DNA of 21,724 nucleotides, from positions 1 to 21,724 of the IMG/VR virus record IMGVR_UViG_3300046524_000221; one strand, given 5' to 3'. The position numbers were made by a program, and so were the translations under genes. Shown in pieces: positions 2,225 to 21,724 of this stretch. Numbering within the stretch: position 1 is the first letter of the stretch; the number at the start of each line of letters is the position of its first letter. The notes beneath the pieces are model-generated. The model saw nothing but the letters and a program-made list of their open reading frames with translations, searched no databases and was not told the origin of the DNA. The DNA comes from a virus.

Positions 2225-2251
2225 CTTGATCGAATGCAAATAAGTGCTAAC
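2225..2251 (+). promoter_or_regulatory. Repeated phage control element, copy 1, with TGCTAA box
   Basis: CTTGATCGAATGCAAA (2225-2240) is followed after four bases by GTGCTAAC (2244-2251). This is one of four near-identical copies on the + strand, ending 42 bases before the helicase start. It lies between a possible minus-strand -35 (TTGACA, 2267-2262) and the divergent XRE gene, so a bound protein could control both directions. Whether it is a promoter core or an operator cannot be told from one copy. The distance from TTGATC to the downstream box varies among copies. Confidence 0.55.
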
Positions 2252-2282
2252 GGTATTCCAATGTCAACGCACAGGACTCGTC

Positions 2283-3878
2283 ATGCTCAATATCACGTCA
2301 ATCCCGACGTCCACCTTCATCCCTTCGCCGCAGCAGGCAGACTTCATCAATTTTGCAGAGAGCGGAAGTGGTTCCTGCGTTCTCGAAGCCGTGGCCGGCG
2401 CAGGTAAGACGACTACCATTTTGCAGGCTGTCAAGAAGACGGCTGGTTCCGCGATCATCCTGGCCTACAACAAGAAGATTGCGGAAGAACTTAAAGAAAA
2501 GCTGAAGCGCGACGGCGTTGACTGGAAAAAGGCTGAGGCTGCTACAGTTCACTCGATCGGCTTGCGCGCGTTCCGAAAACGGTTCCCTGGTGCCGGCGTC
2601 AACGAGAACAAGATCGCCAACCTTTGGTCCGGCGAAGAGCAGGCTGGCAACATCCCGATCGCTCTCAAGCTGCACGTTTCAGCAGTCTGCCAGCTGATCT
2701 CACTCGCCAAGCAGAACGGCTTCGGCGTTCGCGGCATCATCGAGATCGATGACGTCGAAGCGTACATCGAGATGATAGAGCACTACGATATCCTCGACAG
2801 CGGCATCAGCCCGGGCGTCACGTTTGATATCATCTCGACGGCCATTCGGCTGCTCAAGATGTCCAACGATATCACCGACGTCATCGACTTCGATGACATG
2901 GTCTATATGCCGCTGGTCCATAACGTCCGGTTCTGGCAGTACGACATCGTCGTCATGGACGAGGCGCAGGATACCAATACGGTACGCCGCGAGATCGTGA
3001 AGCGACTGCTTAAGCGTGGCGGCCGGTTCTTCGCTGTCGGCGACAGCCGTCAGGCGATTTACGGCTTCACCGGCGCATCGTCCGACGCGCTGGAGATCAT
3101 CAAGCGTGAGTTTGGTGCGATCCAGATGCCGCTCACGGTCACCTACCGATGCCCCAAGGCCGTGGTGGAGTTCGCCAGGCGCTGGGTCGATCACATCGAG
3201 GCACACCCCTCGGCACCCGAAGGTAAGCTGTCGGCTTCTACCTTCGAGGACTTCATCACCCGCCAGGATCTGAACCGCGACGCCGCGGTGCACTGCCGGA
3301 ACACCAAGCCGCTGGTGAAGGCTGCTTTCGCACTGATCCGCGCCAAGGTTCCCTGCCGGATCGAGGGACGCGACATCGCCGAGGGCCTGAAGAAGCTGGC
3401 CCTTCGCTGGAAGTCTGCGAAGACGCTCGGCCAGTTGTCCGATCGCCTCAAGGAATACCAGGAGCGCGAGGTCGCCAAGGCGCTTGAGAAGAAAAAGGAG
3501 ACTCAGGCGCAGCAGATCGAGGACAAGGTCGACACGCTCCGGGTTATCATGTCCCGCGTGCAGGAAGACGGTCGCAACGACGTCGACGCGGTGGTCGCCT
3601 ACATCGACCAACTGTTCGGCGACAACGTCTCCAGCGTCCTGACGCTCTCGACGATCCACAAGTCGAAGGGCCGCGAATGGAAGCGTGTCTTCTGGCTCGA
3701 TCGCGTCAACACCTGCCCGTCTCGCTACGCCACTCAGGAATGGCAGAAGGTGCAGGAACACAACTTGTGTTACGTCGCGGCAACTCGGGCCATGGACGAG
3801 TTGATCGAATTACTGCCGCCAACAGAAAAGAAAGCAGCAAACGAGAACAACAAGCCGACGCAGGAAAAGGCCGCGTGA
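2283..3878 (+). CDS. UvrD/Rep-type superfamily 1 DNA helicase
   Basis: The 531-residue protein would translocate on single-stranded DNA and unwind duplexes using ATP, serving replication or recombination. Superfamily 1A motifs are in order: Q-motif region PSPQQADF (15-22), Walker A AGAGKTT (38-44), Walker B DEAQD (226-230), motif III GDSRQAIYGFTGA (253-265), motif IV YRCP (288-291), motif V STIHKSKGREW (456-466) and motif VI YVAATRAMDEL (497-507). A lysine- and glutamate-rich stretch at about 385-425 probably forms the 2B/coiled segment. I chose the ATG at 2283 because AGGA lies upstream at the right spacing and the Q motif follows directly. A longer in-frame start at 2244 would run through the control element. 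The stop overlaps the next ATG (TGATG). Confidence 0.93.
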   Translation: MLNITSIPTSTFIPSPQQADFINFAESGSGSCVLEAVAGAGKTTTILQAVKKTAGSAIILAYNKKIAEELKEKLKRDGVDWKKAEAATVHSIGLRAFRKRFPGAGVNENKIANLWSGEEQAGNIPIALKLHVSAVCQLISLAKQNGFGVRGIIEIDDVEAYIEMIEHYDILDSGISPGVTFDIISTAIRLLKMSNDITDVIDFDDMVYMPLVHNVRFWQYDIVVMDEAQDTNTVRREIVKRLLKRGGRFFAVGDSRQAIYGFTGASSDALEIIKREFGAIQMPLTVTYRCPKAVVEFARRWVDHIEAHPSAPEGKLSASTFEDFITRQDLNRDAAVHCRNTKPLVKAAFALIRAKVPCRIEGRDIAEGLKKLALRWKSAKTLGQLSDRLKEYQEREVAKALEKKKETQAQQIEDKVDTLRVIMSRVQEDGRNDVDAVVAYIDQLFGDNVSSVLTLSTIHKSKGREWKRVFWLDRVNTCPSRYATQEWQKVQEHNLCYVAATRAMDELIELLPPTEKKAANENNKPTQEKAA

Positions 3879-6982: not shown

Positions 6983-7681
6983 TTACGCGGTCTTCATCGC
7001 AACCATGACGATGGCGAGTTCGCCGATATCGTCGAAGCCGATTTTCTCGTCATCCTTGGCAGGCATCGATTTCGAGAGAGTCAGGCCGTTCTCGTTGAGG
7101 CCTACCAATATCCGAACGCGAGCGCGACCAGACTTGTCGGTGACCACCAGAATGTCACCCGCGATCGGATCACGGCTCTTGCTGGCGAACATGAGCGAGC
7201 CAGCCTTGAACCACGGATCGAGAGAGTCGTCCGGCATATAGAAGCCGAACGCGGTATCGTCATCCTTGAGCTGCGGCGGGACCGCCACCTGACCTGTTCG
7301 CTTCGAACCCGTCGTACTCTGCAGCGACGTCGGCAGCGCAGAGAAATAGCGCAGATCGACCGTCGCAGCAGCGTGCGACCTGGACGAGCTGCTGGGCTTC
7401 TTCTCTTCACTCGTTGCAGGCTGAGCCTGGCGGAGCAACTCGGTGATCTCGCTCGGGATGGGAAGGTTGCTCGCCTCGGAGATCTTACCCAGCGTCTTCA
7501 TCGAGGGCACGAACTGATACTTCTCGTCGTTCAGGAGGCGCAGGATGGTTGACGGAGAGAGGCTCGCCTTTCGAGCCAGGTCCGTGCCTGTCCAATTCTT
7601 CCGATCGAGGATCGCCTGGATCCAGTCGACAACAACGTCCTTGGCGGACTTCATAGGGGTGGCAGCCATTACATCGGGCAT
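6983..7681 (-). CDS. CI-like repressor with HTH and S24-type C-terminal domain
   Basis: The 232-residue protein has an HTH domain at about 20-55 (LARKASLSPSTILRLLNDEK), a low-complexity Ser/Glu linker (88-105) and a LexA/CI-like C-terminal domain from about 140. There MPDDSLDPWFKAGS holds the usual Ser position (Ser153), followed by GDILVV. Where LexA-type proteins have the catalytic Lys (VKR), this one reads VRIL, with Arg190. Self-cleavage may therefore be lost and induction could use another route. I chose ATG at 7681, with AGAGA nearby. A longer in-frame version to 7768 lacks a ribosome-binding site. It is probably the lysogeny-type repressor of the phage, acting on operators around 7682-7962. 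Confidence 0.85.
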   Translation of the reverse strand: MPDVMAATPMKSAKDVVVDWIQAILDRKNWTGTDLARKASLSPSTILRLLNDEKYQFVPSMKTLGKISEASNLPIPSEITELLRQAQPATSEEKKPSSSSRSHAAATVDLRYFSALPTSLQSTTGSKRTGQVAVPPQLKDDDTAFGFYMPDDSLDPWFKAGSLMFASKSRDPIAGDILVVTDKSGRARVRILVGLNENGLTLSKSMPAKDDEKIGFDDIGELAIVMVAMKTA

Positions 7682-7962
7682 GGGAATCTCTATCGGTAGT
7701 CGCTGAATAAAAGTAGAGGCGCAAGAAAAAATTTGCTTTGGTTCGAAGACAAACGTCGTCGTTTGCACTCACCGAGCACACCCTTCGATCTTCTGCAGAA
7801 GTCAGTCTCGACTTGCACTTGCATTCGCCCCGTTTGTAATCAAGCTAACGGCCTGACATACGACAGGTTTCGAGCTAATGCAAAGAAAATTTCTGTTCAC
7901 GGAATGTTCTGCTATTGACTCCGAGAGCAAAATGCTCTCTGAGCCTTACGAAACAAGGGGTT
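7682..7962. promoter_or_regulatory. 281-bp repressor control region
   Basis: This is the longest stretch without a gene. It holds an inverted repeat CAAACG-N4-CGTTTG (7750-7765), a GCTAACGG box near 7844 that matches one at 2246, a GCTAATGCAAA box (7874-7884) shared with 11323-11333 and 18205-18215, and a hairpin with stem GAGAGCA/TGCTCTC and loop AAA (7923-7939). The minus strand carries TTGCAT-17-TATGTC as a weak promoter candidate for the repressor. The hairpin lies 24-40 bases past the stop of the RuvC-like gene and may end its transcript, though no U tract follows. A 61-codon frame at 7733-7918 looks spurious. Confidence 0.55.
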
Positions 7963-8707: not shown

Positions 8708-9538
8708 ATGAGCTTTGAACAACTAGCCTGGGCTCGCCGGATCGATACCGGCAGCCCGACGAGAAAATCTGTCCTGATGGCGCTGGCCAGCTACTCAGAC
8801 GAGCGCTGGATGTGCTGGCCGTCGCAACGGACTCTCTCCCTCGATACCGAGTTCAGTGTCCGCGCGGTTCGTAAAGCGCTGTGCGAGCTTGAAGAGCTGA
8901 ACATCATTGATCGCCGTGGTCGTCGTGACCGCGAGCAGAACTACATGACGGACATCATCCGTCTAAACCCCAAGAACTGGCCGATGCAGACTCGCCGGAT
9001 CGATCCTGAGGATCGTGAAGACGGGTTAAGCGACGCTGTGGACGCCAGCGGCACCTCGTGCCGCAGCGATTTCGCAGCGGCATCTGACGACCGTGACAGC
9101 GGCACCTCGCGACAGTCGCAGCGGTACGTCACGACAGGTCCAGCGGCATCTGACGACACTGGCTCCGGCACCTCACGACAGTCGCAGCGGCACCAGGTGC
9201 CTCCTAACTACCAGATAGAACTACCAGCTGAAGAACCAGAAAGAACTACCAGTGTGAATGCGAGCACAGGCGATTGGCCGAAAGACGCATTCGAACAGTT
9301 CTGGACTCGCTTCCCCAACAAGGTCGGCAAGCCAGCTGCACGGAAGTCGTTCGATCGCATCGCCAAGACCGGCAAGGTTCCCTGGGCGACCCTGATGAAG
9401 GGACTCATGGCCTACGTCCGCAAGGACGATGACCGACAGTGGTGCAACCCCACAACGTTCCTCAACCAGGAACGCTGGGAAGATCAGCCGGCCCAGGTCA
9501 AGCGCCAGGGATACACCAAGCCAGGTGCTGCGATCTGA
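8708..9538 (+). CDS. Replication initiator-like protein with winged-helix N-terminus
   Basis: The 276-residue protein has a winged-helix domain at about 1-90, with WPSQRTLSLDTEFSVRAVRK and CELEELNIIDRRGR as the helix-turn-helix and wing. A hydrophilic repeated linker follows (113-168). The C-terminal domain (190-276) contains FEQFWTRFPNKVGKPAARKS and CNPTTFLNQERWED. This build matches lambda O-like and DnaT/DnaD-like phage replication proteins, which bind an origin and recruit a helicase. The linker has two 22-residue copies beginning AASDD..., encoded by a 66-bp tandem repeat. I chose ATG at 8708 with AGGA upstream. The stop overlaps the zinc-ribbon gene (TGATG). The initiator role is inferred from domain order and position. 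Confidence 0.82.
   Translation: MSFEQLAWARRIDTGSPTRKSVLMALASYSDERWMCWPSQRTLSLDTEFSVRAVRKALCELEELNIIDRRGRRDREQNYMTDIIRLNPKNWPMQTRRIDPEDREDGLSDAVDASGTSCRSDFAAASDDRDSGTSRQSQRYVTTGPAASDDTGSGTSRQSQRHQVPPNYQIELPAEEPERTTSVNASTGDWPKDAFEQFWTRFPNKVGKPAARKSFDRIAKTGKVPWATLMKGLMAYVRKDDDRQWCNPTTFLNQERWEDQPAQVKRQGYTKPGAAI
9047..9252. other. Candidate replication origin inside the initiator gene
   Basis: Two tandem 66-bp repeats (9077-9142 and 9143-9208) match at about 44 of their first 51 bases. They carry GCGGCATCTGACGAC and CGACAGTCGCAGCGG in the same places. Inverted repeats flank them: GGCAC-CTC-GTGCC (9050-9062) and GGCACC-A-GGTGCC (9189-9201). Three AACTACCAG copies follow (9206, 9219, 9244) in a more A-rich stretch. 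Lambda-type phages carry iterons and an A/T-rich region inside the initiator gene, so this arrangement fits an origin. A simple duplication in a flexible protein linker is the alternative. Confidence 0.5.
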
Positions 9539-9855
9539 TGGCGGTCGATGTCGGGAAGGTTCTTCGAGAGGAGCGGATAGTTCTCCGCTCCATCAAATTC
9601 GGAAACCAGTATGCGGTCTGTCCGCAGTGCTCTCACAACCGGAAAGGTTCGCACAAAAAAATCAAATGCCTGAGCGTCAAGATCGACGCCAGTGGGGTCT
9701 GTTGGAACTGCAAAAATTGTGGATGGGTCGGAAGTGAGAATGCTAAGCGAGAAACACAGCCGGGGTCTGGAGGACAGAAGCCTGTCGCCCGAACTGGCGG
9801 CGGATATGGGGCTCTACAGCGGGCGTCTCTTGCGCGATGGGTCAATCGAGCCTGA
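9538..9855 (+). CDS. Zinc-ribbon protein, primase zinc-finger homologue
   Basis: The 105-residue product is most of a T7 gp4-type primase zinc domain. CPQC (28-31) comes first, Cys44 lies in KKIKCLSV, and CWNCKNCGW (55-63) closes it. Cys28, 31, 58 and 61 are the likely zinc ligands. In gp4 this domain reads the primase recognition sequence. From about residue 64 the sequence is low complexity and is read from DNA that also encodes the next gene in another frame. The useful protein therefore ends near 63, and the tail is probably constrained by the overlap. It starts on the stop of the initiator gene. Either it works in trans with the downstream enzyme, or the two are joined by frameshifting. 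Confidence 0.8.
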   Translation: MAVDVGKVLREERIVLRSIKFGNQYAVCPQCSHNRKGSHKKIKCLSVKIDASGVCWNCKNCGWVGSENAKRETQPGSGGQKPVARTGGGYGALQRASLARWVNRA

Positions 9856-11293
9856 CGAGAACGGTAACGTCCTCTGCATCCCTTACTTCGAGCGCGAAGA
9901 CGAGGTGAACGCGAAGTATCGCTGGTCCAAGGACGGCGAGCGTCGCTTCATGCAGAAAAAGGATGCGACCAAGACGGTCTACAACGCCAATGTTCTCCTC
10001 AACGAGGAGACGCTGCTGGAGCTGGAGGCTGCGACGTCCGCCCTGCTCTGGACCGAAGGTGAATTCGACACCCTTGCGGCGATCGAGAGCGGCCACCCGC
10101 ATACGATCTCCGTGCCGGATGGCGCACCGCCTGCCCGCGACAAGAACGGCCGGCTGATTGCCGTGCCGGATGACGATCGCGACATCGACCCGAATGACGA
10201 CGACAAGTTCGCCTTCATGGGTCGACTTATGGAGCAGTTGCAGCGGGTCAAGATCCACATCATCGCAACCGATGGTGACGAGCCGGGCCGTCGGCTGGCG
10301 AAGGAGCTGGTGCGACGCATCGGCGCCGCGAGATGCCGATGGATCGAATACCCTACCGACGAAGTCGTGCCGGATCGTAAGACCGGAGAGCTGCGGGCGT
10401 GCAAGGACATCAACGAGGTCAAAAAATACTTCGGTCCAGAGAAGGTCCGCGAGCTGATCGAGCTGTCCAAGCCTTGGCCCGTGCGCGGCCTATTCCGCCT
10501 GTCCGACTATCCTGAGCAGGATCTGCCGGCCATGTGCAACACCGGCATCTCGAAAGACCTGGACGAGATGATGAAGATCTATCCCGGCCAGTTCATCGTA
10601 GCCACAGGCATCCCGAACGTCGGTAAATCCACCTTCTGGAACCAGGTTTGCGTCCAGATGGCGAAGGTCCACAAATGGCCGCAGGCGATCTTCTCCGGCG
10701 AGAAGGACGTCAAGCCGTTCCTGGCCCGCGAGCTGATGACTGCATTCCTGGAGAAAGAGCCTGAACGCTGGACGAGCGAGGACCGCAAGCGAGCGGAGGC
10801 CTTCGTCGAGCGCTACTTCCAGTTCATCGACTACGAGCCGGATGGTAACGGCCCGGAGATCGATGTCGAATACCTGCTCAATGCGGCGGCGACCGCAGTG
10901 TTTCGCGATGGTGTCAAGATGCTGACGATCGATCCGTGGAACGAGCTGGAGCACGAGCGGCCGGCGAACAAATCGCTGACGGAATACATCGGCCACTCGA
11001 TCAAGAAAATGAAGCGCTTCGGAAAGCAGTTCAGCTGTGCTGTTGCCGTCGTAGCGCATCCAACGAAGTTCGACTCCGAAGGCGTGCCCGGGCTGTACAA
11101 CATCTCGGACTCCGCACATTGGGCGAATAAATCGGATCTCGGCATCGTGGTTCACGCCAAGAAGGACGACGCACCGAATGCCAGAGAGATCCACATCAAG
11201 AAGGTCCGACTGAAGCGCATCGCCGGCAACACCGGCATCGTGACGTTGGACTTCAACGAGAACATCGGGCTCTTCCAAGAGTCACAATTCTGA
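9740..11293 (+). CDS. TOPRIM primase-helicase lacking the zinc domain (T7 gp4B-like)
   Basis: The 517-residue enzyme would synthesise primers and unwind DNA as a ring helicase. The N-terminus (LSPELAADMGLYSG) is the segment that follows the zinc finger in gp4. TOPRIM residues are TEGEFD (105-110, Glu106) and ATDGDEPG (176-183). RecA-fold helicase motifs are Walker A GIPNVGKST (290-298), Walker B MLTIDPWNELE (394-404) and VVAHPTK (437-443). A stretch ISDSAHWANKSDLG follows. GGAAGTGAG just upstream of ATG 9740 is a fair ribosome-binding site. This frame is open from 9674 and is +1 relative to the zinc-ribbon gene, with 116 bases of overlap. A GTG at 9692 is possible but duplicates zinc-ribbon coding DNA. 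Confidence 0.9.
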   Translation: MLSEKHSRGLEDRSLSPELAADMGLYSGRLLRDGSIEPDENGNVLCIPYFEREDEVNAKYRWSKDGERRFMQKKDATKTVYNANVLLNEETLLELEAATSALLWTEGEFDTLAAIESGHPHTISVPDGAPPARDKNGRLIAVPDDDRDIDPNDDDKFAFMGRLMEQLQRVKIHIIATDGDEPGRRLAKELVRRIGAARCRWIEYPTDEVVPDRKTGELRACKDINEVKKYFGPEKVRELIELSKPWPVRGLFRLSDYPEQDLPAMCNTGISKDLDEMMKIYPGQFIVATGIPNVGKSTFWNQVCVQMAKVHKWPQAIFSGEKDVKPFLARELMTAFLEKEPERWTSEDRKRAEAFVERYFQFIDYEPDGNGPEIDVEYLLNAAATAVFRDGVKMLTIDPWNELEHERPANKSLTEYIGHSIKKMKRFGKQFSCAVAVVAHPTKFDSEGVPGLYNISDSAHWANKSDLGIVVHAKKDDAPNAREIHIKKVRLKRIAGNTGIVTLDFNENIGLFQESQF

Positions 11294-11354: not shown

Positions 11355-11993
11355 ATGGCCGGAACCGTTAACAAAGTGATCCTGGTGGGTCGCGTGGGCG
11401 CAGACCCCGAGATCCGTCAGGCTGGCGACAAGGACGTCGCGAACCTGCGCATCGCCACCAGCGAAAGCTGGAAGGATAAGCGCTCGGGTGAGTGGCAGGA
11501 AAAGACCGAGTGGCACAGCATCACTGTCTGGGCCGAAGGCACCATCAAGTACATCGAGAACAACGTCAGCAAGGGCGACCTGATCTACATCGAAGGTCAG
11601 CTCGAAACCCGCAAGTACGAGAAGGACGGCGTCGATCACTATAAGACGGACGTCGTGATCCCGGCTTTCGGTGGCGCGCTGAAGAGCCTCGTCAAGAACG
11701 ATCGCGATGGCGGTGGTGATGATCGCGGTTCGGACCGCGGTGGTGATCGCGGTGGCCGCAGCGGCGGTTCTCGCAACGACGATCGCGGTGCCAACAGCCG
11801 CAACAGCTCCCGCAACGATGATCGCGGCAGCAAGGACAGCGGTTCGGATCGCGGTGGTCGCAGCAACGATCGCGGCAACGACCGCAACGATGACCGCAGC
11901 AGCTCGCGCAACAGCGGTTCCCGCAACAGCGGAAACGGCAGCTCGTCGCGCGGCGGCGGAAAAAACGACATGGATGACGACATCCCCTTTTGA
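11355..11993 (+). CDS. ssb: Single-stranded DNA-binding protein
   Basis: The 212-residue protein has a bacterial-type OB-fold at about 1-112. It opens AGTVNKVILVGRVGADPEIR, followed by SGEWQEKTEWHSITVWAEG and GDLIYIEGQLETRKYE. A linker of about 90 residues built of Asn, Asp, Arg, Gly and Ser follows, with many NDDRG-like units. The end, DMDDDIPF, is the acidic tip that host replication and repair proteins bind. The linker is longer than usual, and its DNA repeats (AACGATCGCGG-like) make it prone to length change. AGGAG precedes the ATG. The gene has its own control element upstream and a run of hairpins downstream, so it is probably a separate, strongly expressed unit. It protects single strands and recruits partners. 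Confidence 0.96.
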   Translation: MAGTVNKVILVGRVGADPEIRQAGDKDVANLRIATSESWKDKRSGEWQEKTEWHSITVWAEGTIKYIENNVSKGDLIYIEGQLETRKYEKDGVDHYKTDVVIPAFGGALKSLVKNDRDGGGDDRGSDRGGDRGGRSGGSRNDDRGANSRNSSRNDDRGSKDSGSDRGGRSNDRGNDRNDDRSSSRNSGSRNSGNGSSSRGGGKNDMDDDIPF

Positions 11994-14254: not shown

Positions 14255-14448
14255 AGGACTGCCTGAACTGCATTTACAGCACCTACGTCGGGAACGTCAT
14301 CCGCGTTCTTGGTTGCACCGCCCCTGGTATCGGCCAGGGCACGAAGGTCCGTCCCGCCGGTATGGAGCGGCATGACCAAGCTGGCGTCTGCGGCCCGGAC
14401 GGCAAGATGTTCGTCGAGACGGCGGTGCCGGCGCAGGATGTCGCGTGA
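14251..14448 (+). CDS. Small cysteine-containing protein, possible zinc binder
   Basis: The 65-residue product has four cysteines. MKDCLNCIY gives Cys4 and Cys7, VLGC gives Cys22, and AGVCGPDGKMF gives Cys47. CxxC plus two more could hold one zinc ion. GGAG precedes the ATG. It overlaps both neighbours by four bases. It comes right before the exonuclease gene and could assist it, though that is inference from position alone. Confidence 0.65.
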   Translation: MKDCLNCIYSTYVGNVIRVLGCTAPGIGQGTKVRPAGMERHDQAGVCGPDGKMFVETAVPAQDVA

Positions 14449-15143
14449 GACGGATCGTCCTCGATACAGAAACGACCGGCCTCAACTTCGCTGAGGATCG
14501 GATCGTCGAAATCGGTTGCGTCGAGATTGACGGTTTCAATCCGACTGGGAAGACCTATCACGCCTACGTCAATCCGCTTCGTAAGGTCCATCCGGAAGCG
14601 TTCCGTGTCCACGGCCTGAGTGACGTGTTCCTGGCGTCGAAGCCGACCTTCAAGCGGGTCGTCAATCGCTTCCTGAAGTTCATCGGCGATGCGCCGCTGA
14701 TCATTCATAATGCGCCGTTCGACACCCGCATGTTGAACGGTGAAATGAAAAGGCTCGGTCTCCCTAACTTGGAGAACGAGATTATCGACACCCTGAAGAT
14801 GTCGCGAGACCTGCGACCGGGCGGTAAGCACACGCTCGATGCGCTTCTCAGCGCCTACAAGATCGACGGGAGCCGTCGTAGCCAACACCACGGCGCGCTC
14901 ATCGACTCAGAGCTGTTGGCTGAGGTCTACGTCGAGCTGTGCGGCGGACGACAGATTGGCTTCGGCCTTGTCGTCGAAAAGGCTGTGGAAGAGGTGATGC
15001 CGGTTCGTCGGCGCTCTGCTCCGCTGGCAAGCCGGGTGACTGACGAGGACCGCGCGGCACACCGCGCTTTCGTTGAGACACTCGGAGAGAAGGCGATCTG
15101 GAACGAGTATCTGGCGCCGAAGGAAATCGACAAGGCGGCCTGA
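14445..15143 (+). CDS. DnaQ-like 3'-5' exonuclease (DEDDh family)
   Basis: The 232-residue protein would remove 3' terminal nucleotides from DNA, as in polymerase proofreading or end trimming. All DEDDh residues are visible. Exo I is VLDTETTGL (Asp7, Glu9). Exo II is IHNAPFDTRML (Asp93). Exo III is HHGALIDSELLAEVY, with His149 and Asp154. The domain covers about 1-165. The remaining 65 residues are charged and unassigned. The start is GTG overlapping the previous TGA, with AGGA seven bases upstream. No DNA polymerase is encoded in this window, so it may work with a host polymerase or on its own. The next gene is a 5' end exonuclease, suggesting a shared role in DNA ends. Confidence 0.92.
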   Translation: MRRIVLDTETTGLNFAEDRIVEIGCVEIDGFNPTGKTYHAYVNPLRKVHPEAFRVHGLSDVFLASKPTFKRVVNRFLKFIGDAPLIIHNAPFDTRMLNGEMKRLGLPNLENEIIDTLKMSRDLRPGGKHTLDALLSAYKIDGSRRSQHHGALIDSELLAEVYVELCGGRQIGFGLVVEKAVEEVMPVRRRSAPLASRVTDEDRAAHRAFVETLGEKAIWNEYLAPKEIDKAA

Positions 15144-15207
15144 TTGGCCGCTCCAAGGGCGGAGCTGTGCCCGCTCACTTGCACGAATTGAAACAAGGAG
15201 AACGACA

Positions 15208-16167
15208 ATGCAAACTGCACGATATCGTACTGGCAATATCGGTATGTCCGACGCCGCCCGCGACGCCCGTCGTGGATCGCTCGGCGGATCCGATGCCCGC
15301 ATCATCATGTCCGGCAACCAGTCGGCAATCGAAGAGCTGTGGGCGCAGAAGCGCGGAGAAGCGCCGGACACCGACCTGTCTGACGTGCTGCTGGTCCAAC
15401 TCGGCAATATCACCGAGGCGATCAACGCCGACTGGTTCGAGAAGGAGACCGGTCTGTTCGTCACCAACGAACAGGACAAGGTCCACTATGCCGAGTGGGA
15501 GTTCGCTCACACCACTCTCGATGGCATCGTCCGATCGGCTCGCGATCTGACAGCGCCGAGCCGCGGCATCGTCGAGTTCAAGTACATGCTGCCCTTCAAC
15601 TTCACGAAGGAAGGCGCTGTCGAGAAGTATTTCCCGCAGCTGCAGCACAACATGATGGTCACCGGCGTGAAACACGCCTGGATCTCCATCATCACTGGTG
15701 CCGGCGGGTATTACCTGGCCGAGGTCGATGCCGACATCTTCTACCAGATGAAGCTGCTCGATGAGCTGAAGAAGTTCTGGGATTGCGTCCAGACCGGTCG
15801 CCTGCCCGGCGTTCCGGAGGTCGTCATACCTCAGATCGAGCGCGTCAAGAAGATCGACATGACTGGCGACAACCAGTGGGGCGATCTCGCTGCCACGCTG
15901 ATCGGCACGAAGACCTATGCCGAGCGCCATGAGAAGGCGAAGAAGGACATCAAGAAGATGTTCCCGAACGACGCTCAGGAGGCGTCCGGCTACGGCGTGA
16001 AGATCAGCCTGTCGAAGGACGGCAAGACGCTGATCAACCTCGACAAGAAAGAGATCGAGAAGTTCGACAACGACAACGGGCTCGCTCCCGCTGTCGAAGC
16101 CAAAGAAACGAAACCGAAGGCGCCTCGCAAAAAGGCAGCCGCCAAAGCCACTGAAGAAGCGGCGTAA
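15208..16167 (+). CDS. YqaJ-type viral recombinase exonuclease (lambda Exo-like)
   Basis: The 319-residue nuclease would resect double-stranded ends 5'-3' to give tails for annealing. The PD-(D/E)XK core is seen. RRGSLGGSDARIIMS (21-35) is the usual N-terminal signature. Glu70 is in GNITEAINADWFE, Asp105 in TLDGIV, and Glu123 and Lys125 in IVEFKY. Gln144 and Gln146 lie in the motif PQLQHNMMVTG. The C-terminus is Lys/Ala-rich (APRKKAAAKA), a likely DNA-contacting tail. AAGGAG precedes the ATG, which I preferred to an upstream ATG at 15073 inside the exonuclease gene. A 64-bp gap separates it from the DnaQ-like gene. It probably forms a recombination pair with the next gene. Confidence 0.92.
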   Translation: MQTARYRTGNIGMSDAARDARRGSLGGSDARIIMSGNQSAIEELWAQKRGEAPDTDLSDVLLVQLGNITEAINADWFEKETGLFVTNEQDKVHYAEWEFAHTTLDGIVRSARDLTAPSRGIVEFKYMLPFNFTKEGAVEKYFPQLQHNMMVTGVKHAWISIITGAGGYYLAEVDADIFYQMKLLDELKKFWDCVQTGRLPGVPEVVIPQIERVKKIDMTGDNQWGDLAATLIGTKTYAERHEKAKKDIKKMFPNDAQEASGYGVKISLSKDGKTLINLDKKEIEKFDNDNGLAPAVEAKETKPKAPRKKAAAKATEEAA

Positions 16168-19550: not shown

Positions 19551-21724
19551 ATGAGAGTTGATCGGAAGTTCACCGTTGCAGGGCAGTCGCCCTATAGCGG
19601 CATCGAGTTTCGGAAGGCGACCAGCGAAATCCGCAAGCCGGATGGCACGGTCGTGTTCCGCATGGAAAATATCGAGGTGCCTGCGGCGTGGTCGCAGGTT
19701 GCCGTAGACGTGCTTGCGCAGAAGTATTTCCGCAAGGCCGGCGTCCCGCACAACCTGATGCGCGATGACAGCGAGCCGATCGTCCCGACCTGGCTGCGTC
19801 GCAACTACGGCGCACCATACCCCGCCGATCAAGAAGCGCAGCACACCGGACCCGAAATGTCCGCCAAGCAGGTGTTCAATCGCCTCGCCGGCTGTTGGAC
19901 CTATTGGGCGTGGAAGGGTGGCTACTTCAACGAGTCCATGAGCACCCACGTCACTCGGGCCGACCTGAACAGCTCCGCTGAAGCCAATGCGCTCGCGTTC
20001 TACGACGAGCTGGTGTTCATGCTTGCCAGCCAGATGATCGCACCGAACAGCCCGCAGTGGTTCAACACGGGTTTGCATTGGGCATACGGCATCGATGGGC
20101 CAGCTCAGGGTCACTACTACTTCGATCCCGACGTGGTTTCTTCGATCACCGTCGAAAACGGTTTCCCGGCATCTGACCCGGTGATGGGTAAGCTGATGGC
20201 TTCGGCCTCGTCTTACGAGCGACCGCAGCCGCACGCCTGTTTCATCCAGTCGATCGGCGACAACCTCGTCGAGGATGGCGGCATCATGGACCTGTGGGTC
20301 CGCGAGGCTCGCCTGTTCAAGTACGGCTCCGGCACCGGCACCAACTTCTCCAACCTTCGCGGGACCGGCGAGAAGCTGTCCGGCGGTGGCACGTCATCAG
20401 GCCTGATGTCGTTCCTCAAGATCGGCGACCGCGCTGCTGGCGCCATCAAGTCGGGCGGCACCACTCGCCGCGCTGCCAAGATGGTCGTGATCGATATCGA
20501 CCATCCAGACGTTGAAGCCCTGATCGACTGGAAGGTCGAGGAAGAGCAGAAGGTCGCCGCGCTGGTTGCTGGTTCGAAGTCGATTAATAAGGCCATGCAG
20601 GCCATCAACGACGCCGTTGCTGACGGCCACGAGTTCGACCCGAGCGAGAACGAGGCACTGCGCAAAGCGATCCGCGACGCCCGCCGCGCCAACGTGCCGG
20701 ACACCTACATCAACCGCGCTCTGCAGATGATGCGGAATGGGGAAGATCCGACCAAGTTCCCGGTGTTCGATACGGACTGGCAGTCTCAGGCCTATGAGAC
20801 GGTGTCGGGTCAGAACTCGAACAACACCGTGTCGGTCACCGACCAGTTCATGCGTGCCAGCGAGAACCCGAACGCACAGTTCGATCTGAAGGGGCGCATC
20901 ACTGGTGATGTGATGAAGCGAGTGAATGCCTACGATCTGTGGGACAAGATCGCCTTTGCGGCGTGGCAGTCTGCTGATCCGGGTCTGCACTTCAACACGA
21001 CAATGAATGACTGGCACACCTGCCCGGCCGGTGGTCGCATCCGCGCGTCCAATCCGTGCTCGGAATACATGTTCCTCGACGACACCGCCTGCAACCTGGC
21101 GTCAGCGAACCTGATCAAGTTCCTCAAGAACGGTCAGTTCGACACCGTCGCGTTCGAGCATGTCTGCCGGCTGTTCACCATCGTGCTGGAAGTGTCCATC
21201 TATATGGCGCAGTTCCCGTCGAAGGAGATTGCTCAGTTGTCCTACGACTACCGCACCATCGGTCTTGGCTACGCCAACATCGGCGGTCTGCTGATGACCA
21301 TGGGTCTGCCCTATGACTCTCCGGCTGCTCGGGCTCTCGCTGGTTCGATCACTGCGATCATGACCGCGACCTCCTATCGCACCTCGGCAGAGATGGCGCA
21401 GGAGATGGGTCCGTTCGTGAGGTTCGACGAAAACGCGGATTCGATGCTTCGCGTGATCCACAACCATCGCGCCGCGGCAACGGGTGCGCCGTTCGTGGGG
21501 CTTTCGATCAACCCGCCGTACCTCGATTGGGGTAATCAGCCGCAGAAGAACCTCGCCGAGCGCGCGGCGACGCTATGGAATGAAGCCTACGAGCTGGGCA
21601 GCCGACATGGTTTCCGCAACGCCCAGACGACCGTCATCGCCCCGACCGGGACGATTGGCCTCGTCATGGATTGCGATACCACAGGCATCGAGCCCGACTT
21701 CGCGCTGGTGAAGTTCAAGAAGCT
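19551..21724 (+). CDS. nrdJ: Class II (B12-dependent) ribonucleotide reductase, 3' end outside window
   Basis: The first 724 residues are present and no stop occurs before the window ends. The enzyme makes deoxynucleotides from ribonucleotides using adenosylcobalamin and needs no oxygen and no small subunit. Landmarks are APNSPQWFNTGL, QPHACFIQ with redox Cys230, FKYGSGTGTNFSNLRG, SGQNSNNTVSV, NPCSEYMFLDD with Asn501, Cys503 (thiyl radical) and Glu505, DTACNLAS with redox Cys514, and APTGTIGLVMDCDTTGIEPD near the window end. All active-site residues are intact. From memory the sequence resembles rhizobial NrdJ closely, with insertions around SMSTHVTRADLNSS and after HYYFDPD, so host-to-phage transfer is likely. 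GAGG lies five bases before the ATG. Confidence 0.95.
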   Translation, partial: MRVDRKFTVAGQSPYSGIEFRKATSEIRKPDGTVVFRMENIEVPAAWSQVAVDVLAQKYFRKAGVPHNLMRDDSEPIVPTWLRRNYGAPYPADQEAQHTGPEMSAKQVFNRLAGCWTYWAWKGGYFNESMSTHVTRADLNSSAEANALAFYDELVFMLASQMIAPNSPQWFNTGLHWAYGIDGPAQGHYYFDPDVVSSITVENGFPASDPVMGKLMASASSYERPQPHACFIQSIGDNLVEDGGIMDLWVREARLFKYGSGTGTNFSNLRGTGEKLSGGGTSSGLMSFLKIGDRAAGAIKSGGTTRRAAKMVVIDIDHPDVEALIDWKVEEEQKVAALVAGSKSINKAMQAINDAVADGHEFDPSENEALRKAIRDARRANVPDTYINRALQMMRNGEDPTKFPVFDTDWQSQAYETVSGQNSNNTVSVTDQFMRASENPNAQFDLKGRITGDVMKRVNAYDLWDKIAFAAWQSADPGLHFNTTMNDWHTCPAGGRIRASNPCSEYMFLDDTACNLASANLIKFLKNGQFDTVAFEHVCRLFTIVLEVSIYMAQFPSKEIAQLSYDYRTIGLGYANIGGLLMTMGLPYDSPAARALAGSITAIMTATSYRTSAEMAQEMGPFVRFDENADSMLRVIHNHRAAATGAPFVGLSINPPYLDWGNQPQKNLAERAATLWNEAYELGSRHGFRNAQTTVIAPTGTIGLVMDCDTTGIEPDFALVKFKK

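Follow-up and report, generated by a model that had tools for sequence, protein, structure and literature searches.

The locus described here raises the question of how a phage makes a primase-helicase resembling the gene 4 protein (gp4) of T7 when the zinc ribbon and the remainder of the enzyme are encoded in different reading frames. The window, by which we mean the whole stretch of DNA that was analysed, is a virus record of 21,724 bases, and the features on which the argument turns are as follows.

8708..9538, plus strand: upstream replication-initiation O-like gene (HTH_36; PF13730, E 1e-12; phrog_270 replication initiation, E 1e-35)
9538..9855, plus strand: ORF of the putative zinc-ribbon subunit, 105 aa (ATG 9538, stop 9853-9855)
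9619..9726, plus strand: zinc ribbon CPQC...CLSV...CKNCGW (Cys codons 9619, 9628, 9667, 9709, 9718)
9730..9738, plus strand: Shine-Dalgarno-like GGAAGTGAG for the helicase (pairing energy -6.1 kcal/mol at ATG 9740; family-wide enrichment here)
9740..11293, plus strand: T7-gp4-like TOPRIM/RNA-polymerase domain and DnaB-type helicase without a zinc domain, 517 aa (ATG 9740)
9740..9855, plus strand: dual-coding overlap, 116 nt, of the helicase N-terminus and the C-terminal tail of the zinc subunit
9802..9843, plus strand: predicted (AF2) C-terminal helix of the zinc subunit, GYGALQRASLARWV (residues 89-102)
9853..9855, plus strand: conserved zinc-ORF stop, made by helicase CCT-GAC (Pro-Asp), the T-ending codon being kept

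A primase-helicase divided between two frames

A sequence-only reading had identified this pair of ORFs as a T7-gp4-like primase lying in two frames with an overlap of 116 nt; these coordinates are confirmed, and profile and fold comparisons agree on the identity. The product of the downstream gene matches T7 gp4 residues 79-536 by profile (E 1e-24 to 8e-26), with its TOPRIM primase domain and DnaB-type helicase colinear with those of T7 gp4, and it matches PHROG 239 (phrog_239) with an E of 4e-60. In its AlphaFold2 (AF2) model (mean pLDDT 87.7) a confidently predicted helix begins at residue 4, and the PDB entry closest to the model in fold is T7 gp4 itself (5ikn, E 4e-22). Helicase residue R13 aligns with T7 R84, which places M1 at about T7 residue 72, eight residues beyond M64, the internal start of T7. 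The helicase occupies the +1 frame relative to the zinc ORF, and its open frame extends back to 9674. The zinc and primase domains thus do not lie on one polypeptide, being in different frames in the window and in all 119 of the split loci described below.

The zinc ORF begins at a TGATG (9536-9540) in which its ATG overlaps the TGA stop of the O-like gene. The frame of the latter is open from GTG 8660, and we place its probable start at ATG 8708 (residue 17), judging from where its family matches begin. The CxxC...CxxC ribbon provides zinc-binding Cys ligands encoded directly 5′ of the primase domain, and C28, C31, C44, C58 and C61 are invariant (alignments A2/A3). A profile made from zinc segments of this kind recognises, in addition, the zinc domains that fused relatives carry in frame. 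Against Pfam and NCBIfam the zinc protein gives nothing above threshold, the zinc domain has no significant match to solved zinc domains by sequence or fold, and comparison of the zinc protein structure with the PDB yields nothing significant, the top rank being a T4 primosome chain (E 1.9). The AF2 model of the zinc protein has a disordered linker followed by the helix at residues 89-102 (pLDDT about 60-70). An amphipathic character for this tail helix was considered and rejected, its hydrophobic moment being low (0.15).

Other genes in the window

The window also carries a set of replication and repair genes, comprising an ATP-dependent DNA ligase (394-1512), a UvrD-like helicase (2244-3878), an SSB (11355-11993), an RNase T-type exonuclease (14445-15143) and a YqaJ-like recombinase (15073-16167). 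A class II B12-dependent ribonucleotide reductase (19551-21722) runs off the window, and its residues 327-393 match the TACO1/YebC N-terminal domain with a score, 33.3 bits, that falls below the cut-off of 36. The minus strand encodes an HTH repressor-like protein (6983-7768), which is consistent with a temperate phage.

The frame relation is conserved among relatives

Relatives were collected from viral contigs, bacterial genomes and annotated phages, giving 226 loci in the junction census. Removal of near-copies left 119 split loci (the window included), 35 called fused and six without a recognisable zinc ribbon. One of those called fused, L224 of Geminicoccus flavidas, was recounted as a decayed split copy, reducing the fused loci to 34; an additional frameshift interrupts its helicase gene, and the junction between zinc and helicase is still in the split frame. 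There are three prominent features of this census. First, in 119 of 119 non-redundant split loci the helicase is read in the +1 frame relative to the zinc ORF, never in the third, and in every one the spacing between the last Cys and the invariant R13 is correspondingly 1 mod 3. Second, this relation has been kept through repeated changes in length, with a parsimony minimum of 54 between the last Cys and R13 and 39 between the last Cys and the start codon, counts that are approximate because some lengths (values such as 154 and 166) are motif-search measurement errors. Third, the 34 fused loci are more distant relatives, each a single in-frame fusion, and on a FastTree tree from which the first 45 helicase residues were left out they are separated from the split loci by a single change. 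A single origin of the split, from a fused gene, is the most likely.

The same split is carried by the cultured Bradyrhizobium phage BDU-MI-1 and by bacterial genomes. The split arrangement is evolutionarily conserved, being found in more than 100 non-redundant relatives. In none of the frames over the roughly 600 nt that precede the helicases of L053, L202, L206 (clade 6) and L196 can a zinc ribbon be recognised; it may have been lost, moved elsewhere or become too diverged.

The helicase has its own start signals

In 102 of 119 split loci (86%) an ATG is present between -15 and +18 nt relative to the helicase start, as against 23% of control windows, and GTG or TTG is found there in seven further loci. 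The Shine-Dalgarno signal, scored as pairing with the 16S tail, has a median of -6.8 kcal/mol, whereas internal Met codons give -2.5 kcal/mol (p 8e-48, a value that overstates independence as the loci are related). Among the fused relatives an ATG lies within 30 nt in only 6 of 35, mostly without a strong ribosome-binding signal. Separate translation of the helicase, which the sequence-only reading had favoured from GGAAGTGAG, is therefore well supported by the comparison of start regions: the ATG is common, the pairing energy strong, and such starts few in fused relatives.

In ten of the 119 split loci ATG, GTG and TTG are all missing from the region where the helicase would be expected to start. 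One of these, L056, does carry an ATG at -21, and L045, L158 and L168 have CTG at the homologous place (codons read by eye). The remainder (L051, L116, L166, L171, L172 and L173) often have a helicase frame that stays open throughout the zinc domain. The notion that the Shine-Dalgarno sequence arises from a conserved Gly-Gly motif was rejected as a general account, that motif being present in some clades only.

Selection in the overlap

Selection in the overlap was examined in 22 close sequences (<95% identical) using 38-codon windows. Third-position divergence of the helicase gene is 0.239 in the overlap and 0.390 elsewhere, lower than in every other window of the same size, and second-position divergence is higher in the overlap (0.204 vs 0.155). 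Read in the zinc frame, the overlap has an amino-acid diversity of 0.286; windows taken in the same frame from the rest of the helicase gene average 0.500 and never fall below 0.389. The zinc tail LQRxSLAR is fixed, with LQR and LAR invariant or nearly so, and the helicase residues encoded there vary (R/L, L/S). The stop codon is maintained as well: T is the last base of the Pro/Ala codon at the zinc stop in 16 of 22 rows, compared with 9% of Pro/Ala codons elsewhere, and the rows without the T are mostly those with a nearby insertion; (P/A)(D/E) pairs elsewhere give 16 of 248. These patterns of divergence indicate that the tail and stop of the zinc ORF are under purifying selection of their own in the window's clade.

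It is in this clade only that selection is seen in both frames, as expected of an overprinted pair. Clades 9, 13, 18 and 3, which are more diverged sets in which the test has less power, give no dual-coding signal, and clade 17 gives a weak hint of tail selection. The overlap ranges from 86 to 527 nt across clades 9, 13, 18 and 3, with wide variation in clades 13 and 3. Basic charge in the tail was rejected as a cause of the frame conservation, the value being 0.116 both there and in the same-frame control.

Two probably separately translated genes and the alternatives

We consider it very probable (about 0.85) that two overlapping genes encode this T7-gp4-like primase-helicase, each started separately, with the zinc module supplied in trans. 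The upstream ORF would yield a small zinc-ribbon protein, begun at the TGATG junction with the replication-initiation gene, and the helicase with its TOPRIM primase domain would begin at the internal ATG, using its own ribosome-binding site within the last codons of the zinc module. The zinc module is probably a separate primase specificity subunit; the linker and C-terminal tail would hold it on the helicase, so that both proteins would be made, bind each other and prime together. Because the zinc-module codons would extend up to and include the helicase start, beyond which the helicase frame itself would bar other indels, the frame would be locked, with only indels of three tolerated, and in the window's clade selection on the tail would add to this locking. 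We count in favour of the two-gene reading the frame relation in 119 of 119 loci, its single change on the tree, the in-frame fused relatives, the conserved ATG and Shine-Dalgarno signal, the selection on the zinc-frame tail and stop, the helix from helicase residue 4, and a helicase start at about T7 residue 72 that adjoins the internal T7 start M64. Against it we count the ten loci without a canonical start and a tail selection that is clear only in the window's clade. A more elaborate version, to which we give somewhat less than even odds, is that a phage lineage has made of a single-chain primase-helicase an obligate two-subunit enzyme in which the overprinted docking tail of the zinc specificity subunit is encoded inside the helicase gene, allowing the subunit its own dosage and exchange on the helicase ring.

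The other explanations differ in what they make of the frame relation. Programmed +1 (or -2) frameshifting, which the sequence-only reading invoked for making a full-length protein, would fuse the zinc domain to the helicase, alone or beside separate products, as in phage tail chaperones. It would equally demand that the frame relation be kept strictly over at least 39 changes in junction length, several loci lack a canonical helicase start, and in the window's clade, though in no other, GGGG is found repeatedly in the zinc frame, in 14 of the 22 rows. Nevertheless, slip-prone tetramers are not enriched (0.68, vs 0.61 of control windows) and no site is common across clades, the RNA structure is not unusually stable (z +0.2 to +1.7 for single-strand folds against shuffles), and a stop directly precedes the helicase ATG in L094 and L095. 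The downstream frame, with ten exceptions, has its own start and ribosome-binding signal, and in the window's clade the zinc frame is selected right down to its stop. With no positive support from slip motif or RNA fold, frameshifting seems improbable.

A little less probable again is that the two genes overlap by neutral accident, the zinc tail being functionless and the zinc protein perhaps active outside priming. The absence of a dual-coding signal in clades 9, 13, 18 and 3 and the range of overlap lengths there would fit this, but the tail and stop are selected in the window's clade, relatives carry a homologous zinc domain fused to the same helicase, and the frame never drifts to a simple ATGA overlap. 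A sequencing error or a recently acquired frameshift in a gene that is normally fused, which had also been entertained and would accord with the single frame of the distant relatives, can be set aside with near certainty: the split is shared by all close and intermediate relatives, in many assemblies including BDU-MI-1 and bacterial genomes, and continuous frames, which in close relatives would have pointed to such an error, occur only among the more distant ones. We thus favor two separately translated genes.

Comparison with known systems

The split, overlapping arrangement of a phage primase seems new, in that no earlier description was found in the literature searched; searches for a split or frameshifted phage zinc primase returned nothing relevant, subscription papers being mostly outside their coverage. 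It is also a clear example of a split gene in which the relation between the two frames has persisted in many lineages of phages. Among the annotated phages of the collection, only the record of Bradyrhizobium phage BDU-MI-1 (KY940711) contains the zinc protein; this phage has the same split and frame (helicase 68% and zinc protein 81% identical). It differs in that its annotation has the helicase only, the zinc ORF having been missed, and annotation thus overlooks the small zinc subunit.

The fused primase/helicases of PHROG 239 (Flavobacterium phages lillamy and elemoA, Cellulophaga phi10:1 and gut phages) have a homologous helicase and, in several, a homologous zinc domain, and the annotated ones also follow a replication gene. 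In contrast to the split loci, each is one continuous ORF, with roughly 13-41 codons from the end of the zinc profile to the helicase start.

Another close parallel is T7 gene 4, whose 63-kDa and 56-kDa forms have the same zinc-binding, TOPRIM RNA polymerase and DnaB-type helicase domains. T7 makes long and short forms of gp4; translation of the short one begins internally, at M64 (PMC9484634), where a separate ribosome-binding site is used (PMC12593628). Hexamers mix the two forms, and why the mixture works better is debated (PMC12593628). The likeness to the short form drawn in the sequence-only reading is an apt one, as the zinc-less helicase here starts at a nearly matching place, about T7 residue 72. 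The difference is that the internal start of T7 is in frame and a fused form exists, whereas here a fused form would need frameshifting; a natural group of phages whose zinc module is always separate would allow a direct test of zinc action in trans and of the ratio of the two proteins.
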